From Candidatus Baltobacteraceae bacterium (lineage in GTDB: Bacteria > Vulcanimicrobiota > Vulcanimicrobiia > Vulcanimicrobiales > Vulcanimicrobiaceae), in contig DASXGW010000002.1 in assembly GCA_036488875.1 (NCBI GenBank), forward strand, positions 248,001 to 312,000: DNA of 64,000 nt. Reading direction: 5' to 3'. Positions 27,001-29,454 of this stretch are shown in pieces. Each line of letters starts with the position of its first letter. The first letter of the stretch is position 1. Under the pieces are notes generated by a model. It worked only from the letters and a program-made list of their open reading frames with translations, searched no databases and was not told where the DNA came from. The position numbers and the translations under genes were made by a program.

Positions 27001-27615
27001 ATGAACGTCGATCTCACCGCTGGACAGCTCGCCGCAGCGGGCGTTGCCTACGCTCCCCAAATCGCCACCGCCGCGGCGCGGCACGGACTCGATCCGGACT
27101 TGCTCGCCGCCGTGGCGGCTCAAGAGACGGGCGGCCCGGGCGCTAATGCCGGCCGGAACGTGGTGGGCGACGGCGGCCACGGTCACGGGCTGTTTCAGAT
27201 CGACGACCGGTGGCACGCCTTCGCCTCGACGCCCCAGGCCATGGACCCGTCCTCAAATGCCGATTACGCGGCCGGGATGCTCCAAGAGCTCATCGGCCGC
27301 TATGGCAACGTGCGCCAGGCCCTAAGCGCCTACAACGCCGGGAGTCCGGCTGCGACGGGCACGCAGACGCAATGGCCTGACGGGCAGCGTTTGGGCTACG
27401 CCGATTCCGTGATGCGCCACTACGACGAAATCTCCGGGGATGTGCCGCCGCCGGCCGGGCCCGCGCCTGCGCAGCTGCCCGAGACCGCCGAGGCATTAGC
27501 ATCTCAGTCCCCGGCCATGCCGCAGTTGCCGGCGCCGTCACAGCCGCAAAGCTACCACCGTCAGGAGACCGACTACACCGGCCTCTTCGATTCCGACGAT
27601 TCCACCACCGTATAG
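27001..27615 (+). CDS. Lytic transglycosylase (SLT-like) domain protein
   Basis: The 204-residue product has a goose-lysozyme/SLT fold: ARHGLDPDLLAAVAAQETGG with the catalytic Glu in AAQETGG, then HGHGLFQIDDRWHAF and VRQALSAYNAGSPA. These match the ES..GLMQ..YNAG pattern of peptidoglycan lytic transglycosylases. The last 60 residues are Pro/Ala/Gln-rich. No signal peptide is seen, which fits a phage or secretion-machine enzyme better than a housekeeping one. A GGAGG lies 13 bases before the ATG. It is the first gene of a three-gene plus-strand module next to tRNA-Ile. Confidence 0.8.
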   Translation: MNVDLTAGQLAAAGVAYAPQIATAAARHGLDPDLLAAVAAQETGGPGANAGRNVVGDGGHGHGLFQIDDRWHAFASTPQAMDPSSNADYAAGMLQELIGRYGNVRQALSAYNAGSPAATGTQTQWPDGQRLGYADSVMRHYDEISGDVPPPAGPAPAQLPETAEALASQSPAMPQLPAPSQPQSYHRQETDYTGLFDSDDSTTV

Positions 27616-27626
27616 GAGGGCAGACC

Positions 27627-27956
27627 ATGGCATTTTTGCTTCCGATCCTCGAAGGCGCGGGCGCCGGGCTGCTCGGCAACGCCGTCGGCGGACTCTTCGG
27701 CGGTGCCGGCGGCGCGGCCGAAAACGGCGCAATGAACGCGCTGAACTCACAGGACGAGAGCTTCCAGCTCGGGATCTACGCGTCCGAGATCCAGAATCAA
27801 GAGCAACTGCAGATGCAGTCGGAGGTCTTCGATCAGATGATGGACGAGCGCAGCGAAAACATGCGTGAGGTCGACACGCTTCGCAACGTCGACATGGCCC
27901 AACGCAAAGCCGACGACTCGATCACCAAGAAGTTCATTCAGAGCATCACCGAATGA
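27627..27956 (+). CDS. Small protein: Gly-rich N-terminus, helical C-terminus
   Basis: The 109-residue protein starts MAFLLPILEGAGAGLLGNAV and continues as a Gly/Ala-rich hydrophobic stretch of about 35 residues. The remainder is strongly helical and charged, with MQSEVFDQMMDERSENMRE and RKADDSITKKFIQSITE. AGGAGGG lies about 8 bases before the ATG. A truncated homologue of residues about 61-99 lies inverted at 28436-28582. I do not recognise the family. The form (membrane-active head and coiled helical tail, next to a transglycosylase) recalls small structural proteins of phages or secretion machines; that is inference only. Confidence 0.7.
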   Translation: MAFLLPILEGAGAGLLGNAVGGLFGGAGGAAENGAMNALNSQDESFQLGIYASEIQNQEQLQMQSEVFDQMMDERSENMREVDTLRNVDMAQRKADDSITKKFIQSITE

Positions 27957-28213
27957 GCGCGCCGCTTCTTCCGCCGCGCGGCGATCGCACCACAGCGGTG
28001 CGCGCCGCGGCGGCGCGTCCGGCGGCCGGCGCGCCGCCTTCTGACCTCACCGCCGAGCAGCAGGCGCAAGTCGCCGCGCAGCACGCCGCCTTCGACTTCC
28101 AGGCGGCGGAGTCGGCCGAGATGCTGCGCGAGCATGAGGCGCTCCAAGCCCTCATGATGGAGCAGCTCAAGAACGAAGACGAGATCATGAAAAAGTGGAT
28201 CGCGCTCATCTGA
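27953..28213 (+). CDS. Small helical protein, unknown function
   Basis: The 86-residue product overlaps the previous gene by four bases (ATGA). Its first 30 residues are Pro/Ala/Arg-rich and probably disordered. The rest is a long helix (LTAEQQAQVAAQHAAFDFQ, then EMLREHEALQALMMEQLKN) ending EDEIMKKWIALI. That ending resembles the DDSITKKFIQSITE end of the upstream protein, so the two may be distant paralogues or partners. I do not recognise a family. Confidence 0.65.
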   Translation: MSAPLLPPRGDRTTAVRAAAARPAAGAPPSDLTAEQQAQVAAQHAAFDFQAAESAEMLREHEALQALMMEQLKNEDEIMKKWIALI

Positions 28214-28243
28214 GGCGGCCAAGAGGACTCCGCCCCGCGAATA

Positions 28244-28252
28244 TGCTATAAT
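28244..28252 (+). promoter_or_regulatory. Extended -10 promoter of tRNA-Ile
   Basis: TGCTATAAT (an extended -10 TGnTATAAT) ends 21 bases before the tRNA. No convincing -35 was seen, which is usual for extended -10 promoters. Confidence 0.6.
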
Positions 28253-28273
28253 CCAGCCTTCGTTCCGCGCCCC

Positions 28274-28350
28274 GGGCCATTAGCTCAGTTGGTTAGAGCG
28301 CATGCTTGATAAGCATGAGGTCCCTGGTTCGAACCCAGGATGGCCCACCA
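28274..28350 (+). tRNA. tRNA-Ile (anticodon GAT)
   Basis: The cloverleaf is complete: acceptor stem GGGCCAT/ATGGCCC, D-arm TAGCTCAGTTGGTTAGAGC, anticodon stem CATGC/GCATG with loop TTGATAA (anticodon GAT), T-arm CTGGTTCGAACCCAG, and an encoded CCA. The 3' half from 28303 on is repeated at 29373-29421, so this gene served as an integration site and was left intact. Confidence 0.97.
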
Positions 28351-28352
28351 TT
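28303..28352 (+). repeat. Attachment-site copy (attL-like) inside tRNA-Ile
   Basis: This 50-base stretch runs from the anticodon loop to just past CCA. It recurs at 29373-29421 with only one base missing. The layout is what a tyrosine recombinase leaves after integrating at a tRNA. Confidence 0.85.
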
Positions 28353-28363
28353 TGATGAAAAAC

Positions 28364-28391
28364 AAACCTCCGGCGTGCTCGGAGGTTTTCT
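28364..28391 (+). terminator. Intrinsic terminator downstream of tRNA-Ile
   Basis: AAACCTCCG and CGGAGGTTT form a stem around a short GCGTGCT loop, followed by T-rich sequence. It lies 13 bases after the tRNA end and inside the putative integrated segment. Confidence 0.7.
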
Positions 28392-28408
28392 CATTCTTGA
28401 CCCGCTCA

Positions 28409-28429
28409 GGGGTCAAACGCGGGGTCAAA
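28409..28429 (+). repeat. Tandem GGGGTCAAA motifs, left end of element
   Basis: GGGGTCAAA occurs at 28409-28417 and again at 28421-28429, a 12-base period, with an inverted TTGACCC at 28397-28403. The same tandem spacing occurs at the other end (29296-29316). They look like arm-type recombinase or excisionase binding sites. Confidence 0.6.
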
Positions 28430-28435
28430 ACTTCG

Positions 28436-28582
28436 TCAGAAAGCCGCATGTCCGCGACAGACCATCTTGGTGATGGAACTGTCGGCTTTTCGCAGCGCCG
28501 TATCGACGTTGCGCTGCGTATCGACCCCGCGCATATTCTCGCTGCGCTCGTCCATCATCTGATCGAATATCTCGGATTGCAT
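28436..28582 (-). pseudogene. Truncated homologue of the 109-residue module protein
   Basis: The minus strand encodes 48 residues starting MQSEIFDQMMDERSENMRG. About 33 of the first 39 positions match residues of the protein encoded at 27627-27956 (both read ...DQMMDERSENMR.. and end the match at SITK). After that match the sequence diverges into CRGHAAF and a stop, close to the tandem motif site. A stop codon lies directly before the Met, and the Gly-rich N-terminal half is missing. It is therefore best seen as a relic of a related gene, lying 16 bases after the 198-residue gene on the same strand. Confidence 0.75.
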
Positions 28583-28598
28583 TTAGGCGCTCGTGGAC

Positions 28599-29195
28599 TC
28601 ACGCCGGGCGGAAGAACCCGATGAGGCCGCCCTTCGCCTCCCCCGTCGTCGCGTCAATTTCAAACGGAGTATTAGGACCCAACTCCTCGTGGCTGCCGCC
28701 TTTGGGAACCCAGGCCATTCCACGAACGATCCCGTTCGAGTAGCTGAGATCGCGAATGCCGTCTAACGAAACGCGATCGGAGATCCAAAGGATATTGGTG
28801 CCGTCGAAGGCACACACGTCCGTTTCGTCGGCGAGAAACATTTTGCCACCGACAACGTCGGACGCTGCACAAGTTAGCGGCAACGCCGGCAACTCCGACA
28901 CGTCCTCAGGATTACGAACGTCGAGCACGTAGCCTACACCGCGAACCCTGACGCCCATGACGTGGCGATTCGGCGTAGTAAAAATGCAAGGCGCCCCCGT
29001 GCTCCAACGCCCGGTAAATCCACGCTTCCAGGCTTTGCCATCGTCAGTCGTAACTTCCACTTGAACGACGGCGTCCGGGTCTACTCCCGTCGCGGCTTCA
29101 ATCGTACGAACTACAGACGTTCCCGAATGGGGGATGATTCTCGCCTCGTAAGCGTGGGCAAAGCCACCAACGATAACACCCTGGTCTAACTCCAT
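28599..29195 (-). CDS. Hypothetical beta-rich protein inside the tRNA-Ile element
   Basis: The 198-residue product begins MELDQGVIVGGFAHAYEARI. It has repeated beta-type segments such as GKMFLADETDVCAFDGTNIL and YSNGIVRGMAWVPKGGS that suggest part of a beta-propeller. No signal peptide, catalytic motif or familiar family is visible. It is the only intact gene between the two tRNA-derived repeats, so it is the presumed cargo of the element. It reads toward the tRNA. Confidence 0.6.
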   Translation of the reverse strand: MELDQGVIVGGFAHAYEARIIPHSGTSVVRTIEAATGVDPDAVVQVEVTTDDGKAWKRGFTGRWSTGAPCIFTTPNRHVMGVRVRGVGYVLDVRNPEDVSELPALPLTCAASDVVGGKMFLADETDVCAFDGTNILWISDRVSLDGIRDLSYSNGIVRGMAWVPKGGSHEELGPNTPFEIDATTGEAKGGLIGFFRPA

Positions 29196-29295
29196 TGGCG
29201 GAGGCGTGCGGCTGTAGCGACCTCGGTTCCTCTTTGCGGCGGGTCAGTCACGCCGTAGTCCAGCCCTCCCAAAGACGGCGTCCTCAGTCGCTTGA

Positions 29296-29316
29296 GGGGT
29301 CAAATGAGGGGTCAGA
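29296..29316 (+). repeat. Tandem GGGGTCAAA/GGGGTCAGA motifs, right end of element
   Basis: GGGGTCAAA at 29296-29304 and GGGGTCAGA at 29308-29316 have the same 12-base period and strand as the pair at 28409-28429. They lie 57 bases before the distal tRNA fragment. Confidence 0.6.
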
Positions 29317-29372
29317 CTGGACTGCTCGCAAGAAAACCCCTGCAAAATAAGGGCCGAAATCGCGTACCGTCG

Positions 29373-29421
29373 TGCTTGATAAGCATGAGGTCCTGGTTCG
29401 AACCCAGGATGGCCCACCATT
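29373..29421 (+). repeat. Distal attachment-site copy (attR-like tRNA-Ile 3' fragment)
   Basis: The fragment starts TGCTTGATAAGCATGAGGTC and continues through the T-arm to GGCCCACCATT, lacking one C compared with the intact gene. It has no acceptor 5' strand or D-arm, so it is not a functional tRNA. Confidence 0.85.
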
Positions 29422-29424
29422 AAA

Positions 29425-29454
29425 AGAACCTTGCTTGGCAAGGCTCTTTTTTTT
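29425..29454 (+). terminator. Intrinsic terminator behind the distal tRNA fragment
   Basis: AGAACCTTGC pairs with GCAAGGCTCT (one mismatch) around a TTG loop, followed by eight T. It is probably the original tRNA-Ile terminator displaced by the insertion. It would also end transcription running toward the convergent multicopper oxidase gene. Confidence 0.8.

Follow-up and report, generated by a model that had tools for sequence, protein, structure and literature searches.

A conserved gene block beside tRNA-Ile

The window, a 64,000-nucleotide stretch of contig DASXGW010000002.1 from Candidatus Baltobacteraceae bacterium, a soil bacterium, carries at 27001-28213 a transglycosylase gene and two paralogous small helical proteins, which together form a conserved block in the phylum, with a tRNA-Ile gene downstream:

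27001-27615, plus strand: SLT-domain lytic transglycosylase gene, which opens the conserved block (Pfam PF01464, E 8e-11)
27627-27956, plus strand: P109, a 109-aa protein, Gly-rich in its N-terminal half and helical in its C-terminal half, whose family is the source of the relic described below
27953-28213, plus strand: P86, an 86-aa protein paralogous to P109 in the helical half (reciprocal tblastn matches with P109 loci)
28274-28350, plus strand: complete tRNA-Ile (GAT), the attachment gene of the downstream element (ARAGORN, Rfam)

Of 149 Eremiobacterota genomes, 98 contain P109, spread over four families of the phylum, and the database titles retrieved for its relatives are likewise those of Eremiobacterota. 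In the window's family, the loci sampled have the block order fabH, a yceD-like gene, the SLT transglycosylase gene, P109, P86 and tRNA-Ile(GAT), except where an insertion or the end of a contig breaks the locus and in a few cases of rearrangement. An orthologue of the SLT transglycosylase gene lies upstream of P109 at nearly all of these sampled loci, and a locus from a second family of the order (L084) has the same block order without the transglycosylase gene. Given this wide presence and these constant neighbors (FabH, the YceD-like protein, the SLT transglycosylase, P86 and tRNA-Ile), P109 is an old chromosomal gene of Eremiobacterota that is vertically inherited.

The product of P109 matches no Pfam family, and its AlphaFold2 model has a low mean pLDDT (56.5), with one long C-terminal helix whose pLDDT as a block is 74-79 over the last 30 residues. 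A role in the cell envelope would be our guess, made because of the transglycosylase neighbor and the Gly-rich, probably membrane-interacting N-terminus.

The initial annotation of this region took the P109 family to be mobile, which would make P109 itself a mobile or phage gene spreading with tRNA elements. We regard this as extremely unlikely. Off-site pieces of P109 do exist in one relative (G049, below) and, weakly, in another (G051), and the best PHROG match of P109 is to an internal virion protein, although at an E-value of only 0.017. Against these stand the spread over 98 genomes and the constant synteny in the window's family, and no P109 relative was found in viral contigs. Nor was any intact off-site P109 seen in the 149 genomes, where off-site matches are fragments only. 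The initial annotation had also asked whether family members cluster next to tRNA genes. Intact copies of P109 do adjoin tRNA-Ile, but as this is the ancestral place of the gene, the clustering is no sign of mobility. P109 does not travel as a unit; rather, it is a place where mobile elements insert, and pieces of it are left behind when they do.

An inverted piece of P109 inside a tRNA-Ile element

Tyrosine-recombinase elements integrate in the 3' ends of tRNA genes, restoring the tRNA as they do so, and carry paired arm-type sites in attP. Downstream of P86, the window contains the following features of such an element, together with a piece of P109:

28303-28352, plus strand: attL, the left attachment repeat, formed by the 3' part of tRNA-Ile (98% identity over a 50-bp alignment to 29373-29421)
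28409-28427, plus strand: left copy of the tandem motif, GGGGTCAAACGCGGGGTCA, which resembles an arm site and lies 56 bp inward of the left repeat
28465-28582, minus strand: relic of P109, codons 63-101, inverted (82% DNA identity to 27813-27930, E 2e-30)
28599-29195, minus strand: 198-aa ORF, an accessory gene; no other long ORF within the element has homologues
29296-29314, plus strand: right copy of the tandem motif, GGGGTCAAATGAGGGGTCA, 58 bp inward of the right repeat
29373-29421, plus strand: attR, the displaced 3' part of tRNA-Ile, with one base deleted

The two attachment repeats are identical at 49 of 50 positions, no other such pair is present in the genome, and together they bound a segment of 1.07 kb (1.02 kb between the repeats), after which a terminator-like hairpin follows at about 29428-29452. 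Exact matches to GGGGTCAAANNNGGGGTCA occur only twice in the window and in the whole genome, namely at the two ends of the element (28409-28427 and 29296-29314), and the geometry of this placement makes the tandem motifs candidate integrase arm sites. No ORF for a tyrosine integrase is present within 28351-29372, and no intact copy of the 1-kb segment was found in any of the 149 genomes. The segment at 28303-29421 is thus the emptied shell of a tyrosine-integrase-type element. The lack of an integrase between the repeats makes it an internally deleted or non-autonomous element, not an active one.

The same tandem motif was not found beside any other tRNA in the phylum. Downstream of tRNA-Ile in the relative G038 (L078 11249-11420), where the contig stops, a different tandem motif, TTGTCCCCCGTTTTGTCCCCTTTGTCCC, hints at another type of tRNA-Ile element. 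The 198-aa ORF is present in 7 of the 149 genomes (six besides that of the window), with two copies in one of them; it has no Pfam or PHROG family and no relatives in viral contigs or phage records. In G052, the genes surrounding its homologues are accessory and lipoprotein-like. The accessory regions of several genomes (L075, L076 and L112) contain repeated genes of this lipoprotein-like type, in which the signal resembles LLAGCGGSQPP.

Comparing both sides of the tRNA with blastn yielded a single strong match between the plus strand at 27813-27930 and the minus strand at 28582-28465, which is ungapped and identical at 97 of 118 bases (E 2e-30). No further repeats of this kind touch the relic or the P109 region within the window, and across the whole genome P109 has no second match besides the relic. 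In translation, 33 of 39 residues of the relic are identical to codons 63-101 of the 109 in P109. The ORF in which it lies (28436-28582, minus strand) is 48 aa long, and its nine C-terminal residues, MVCRGHAAF, have no match in P109. Between the match boundary and the left tandem motif (28409-28427) there are 38 bp.

Much of what the initial annotation had read from the sequence therefore holds. It had described about 39 residues, roughly 33 of them matching the helical half of P109, and exactly this was counted, although at 28465-28582 and not over the whole ORF. It had described two copies, one truncated, flanking the tRNA in opposite orientation, as the blastn match also has them, along with an end of the match close to the tandem motif. 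Its proposed link between the relic and a mobile-element relic at tRNA-Ile is likewise borne out, the tandem motif being part of that element relic.

Serine-integrase insertions and scars in related genomes

At least four genomes have elements with large serine recombinases at this locus; these elements interrupt P109 at one of two points, codon ~57 and codon ~96, or have their end in the 3' end of P86. Scars are present at the P109/P86 locus in two further genomes (G108 and G053). The relatives are metagenome-assembled, and several of the junctions (those of G055, G049 and G047) coincide with the end of a contig. The window's own P109 is intact and not split by a serine recombinase.

In G107 (L014 / L104), both junctions are on one contig. 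P109 runs up to codon 96 and is followed by 6.8 kb of inserted DNA, at the end of which lies the gene of a 491-aa recombinase with Resolvase (PF00239) and Recombinase (PF07508) domains, the frame of which continues into P109 codons 97-109; P86 and tRNA-Ile come next. P109 is also cut at codon 96 in G038 (L078) and G055 (L079), whose recombinases are 50-52% identical to that of G107, and when the recombinase of G049 (L108) is included, those at P109 or P86 have 47-52% identity to it. The recombinase contig of G055 encodes both a large and a small terminase, which marks the element as a prophage or a prophage relative. The end of the recombinase gene in G038 is fused to the 3' end of P86, immediately before tRNA-Ile (L078 11050-11093). 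In G049, P109 is cut at codon ~57, a recombinase is followed by codons 57-84 and then by foreign DNA, and a third contig begins at P109 codon 58; this pattern may reflect two insertions within the same gene or the presence of more than one strain. The arrangement expected of a gene serving as attB, in which a large serine recombinase gene adjoins the break, is seen in G107 and G049 and, for P86, in G038. In G047, P109 is intact on one contig and another contig begins at codon 97.

Scars are found in two genomes. In G108 (L133 2390-4720), P109 is intact, and downstream of it are scars in which the P109 3' end plus P86 occurs twice, the copies being 96% identical over 276 bp, with a third attachment-like stub, of P109 codons 91-97, between them. 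These scars point to several rounds of insertion plus decay. In G053, P109 and most of P86 are gone, and behind a transglycosylase gene broken off at codon ~111 there is, in inverted orientation, a recombinase C-terminus fused to the 3' end of P86 (L112 4186-4500). This is a second example of inverted debris at the locus. The junctions of G038 and G053 suggest that either gene, P109 or P86, can be used, or that the stretch between them was deleted.

When the SLT transglycosylase gene was used as a control query, no comparable isolated fragments were found elsewhere. With P109 as the query, a weak 50-bp fragment, possibly covering codons about 67-82, was seen in G051 (contig C13, L129 4941-5006); the same contig carries two genes for IS-type transposases as well as a ThiF-like gene resembling one on the G055 prophage contig. 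A further candidate in G107 (contig C110, E 0.001) was unconvincing as a P109 piece when its sequence was read, and the many matches of 20-30 bp are compositional background.

Decay and origin of the relic

We compared the relic with functional P109s of related genera. Over the same 39 codons, these have 0-5 residue changes from the consensus (only one of them has more than 3) and 3-12 third-position changes, whereas the relic has 7 of its 39 residues changed. Its eight private changes are spread 2/5/1 over codon positions 1/2/3, so that seven are at positions 1 and 2. From the residue changes and from this spread it follows that the relic has been evolving without selection for some time, and we infer that the piece has no present function.

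The relic could be functional, as a spare attB for serine-integrase elements that spares the host gene or as a source of a short peptide, but we hold this to be highly unlikely. It is unbroken across the junction points at codons 84 and 96, and other isolated pieces overlap it (codons 57-84 in G049 and possibly about 67-82 in G051). However, its private changes are mostly non-synonymous, its homology stops only about 15 bp past the codon-96 junction, and no clear RBS-like sequence precedes its ATG, as judged by eye. The G049 piece, moreover, lies at a recombinase junction and is better read as a chromosomal remnant between two insertions. A broader version of this idea, in which P109 and its paralogue P86 make up a paired landing site open to serine integrases at either gene, and elements carry pieces of P109 across the junction points as a portable spare attB that diverts incoming phages from the host gene, is a speculation to which we give very little credence.

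The relic and the local P109 differ at 21 positions, spread 2/5/14 over codon positions 1/2/3. For a local copy decaying from birth about 6 third-position differences would be expected against the 14 observed, an excess with P 0.003, or 0.035 when rate uncertainty is included. This excess mildly favors a piece of a working P109 from another lineage before its capture. Alternatively, a piece of the resident P109 could have been copied and inverted across the tRNA by repair or recombination and have been decaying since, with the tRNA element, whether earlier or later, unrelated to it. The relic is only about 530 bp from its would-be parent gene, a tree with the local P109 as its sister is not rejected (AU p 0.42), and no genome is clearly closer over the full length of the relic (83% identity at best, versus 82% to the local P109). 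Such a local duplication is at odds with the third-position excess and with the position of the relic inside the att repeats and motifs, which makes it part of the inserted segment or of a later insertion into that segment. Overall, we consider local duplication unlikely, though an alternative to be taken seriously.

The reading that we consider likely joins a vertically inherited P109, a double landing site and an integrase-less tRNA-Ile shell that holds a decaying, inverted piece of P109. The relic is probably debris of integration traffic at the locus, and we infer that it came with or via mobile elements, probably from a once functional P109 and perhaps from another lineage. Serine-integrase elements and phages would land inside P109 (at codons ~57 and ~96, and perhaps ~84) and in the similar 3' end of P86, and a different, tyrosine-integrase-type element would have landed in the 3' end of tRNA-Ile in the genome of the window. 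Such an active landing site, with different integrases using P109, P86 and tRNA-Ile, would leave behind broken and sometimes inverted pieces, one of which (P109 codons 63-101) would have ended up inverted inside the shell of the tRNA-Ile element and then decayed without selection. Debris at the locus comparable to the relic is present in G053, G108 and G049. The orientation poses a problem for the simplest route, since plain specialized transduction or imprecise excision from tRNA-Ile predicts a piece in the orientation of P109, not an inverted one. No integrase or recombinase remnant was found beside the relic, and matches of its flanks to recombinase gene ends are not significant (best p 0.015, for the 3' flank, out of 20 tests).

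Comparison with known systems

A gene fragment beside a tRNA is no proof that the gene is mobile, and here a tempting misreading is corrected. The relic itself is ordinary. What will be useful to specialists is the landing site, a small gene, from a phylum with hardly any cultured members, that diverse serine integrases have targeted repeatedly; its junctions yield new recombinases with inferable attachment sites and mark a place to seek phages of Eremiobacterota. A search of the literature for the P109/tRNA-Ile locus, which was not exhaustive, found nothing.

The tRNA-Ile segment resembles the elements of tyrosine recombinases in its repeated tRNA 3' half, with the intact tRNA on one side and a decayed, displaced copy on the other, and in its paired tandem motifs, putative arm sites that are placed nearly symmetrically at 56 and 58 bp inside the ends. 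It differs from them in being only 1.07 kb long, in its absent integrase and in having a motif that recurs at none of the other tRNA elements found in the phylum.

For the serine integrases, the closest comparison we can draw is with the work of Durrant et al. 2022 (PMC10083194), in which diverse large serine recombinases converge on one conserved coding site. Examples of targets shared by several recombinases are a prolyl isomerase site and a magnesium chelatase/ATP-dependent protease gene (PMC10083194), and Eremiobacterota are not mentioned in that study. As with those targets, diverse recombinases split one conserved coding sequence at P109, with the recombinase gene at one end of the element. 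Unlike those targets, the P109 family is confined to Eremiobacterota in the present searches, and it offers two or three insertion points within one 330-bp gene in addition to the end of a paralogous neighbor. As far as our searches go, a phylum-specific small gene as a target, with two to three insertion points and a paralogous neighbor that is also used, is new.
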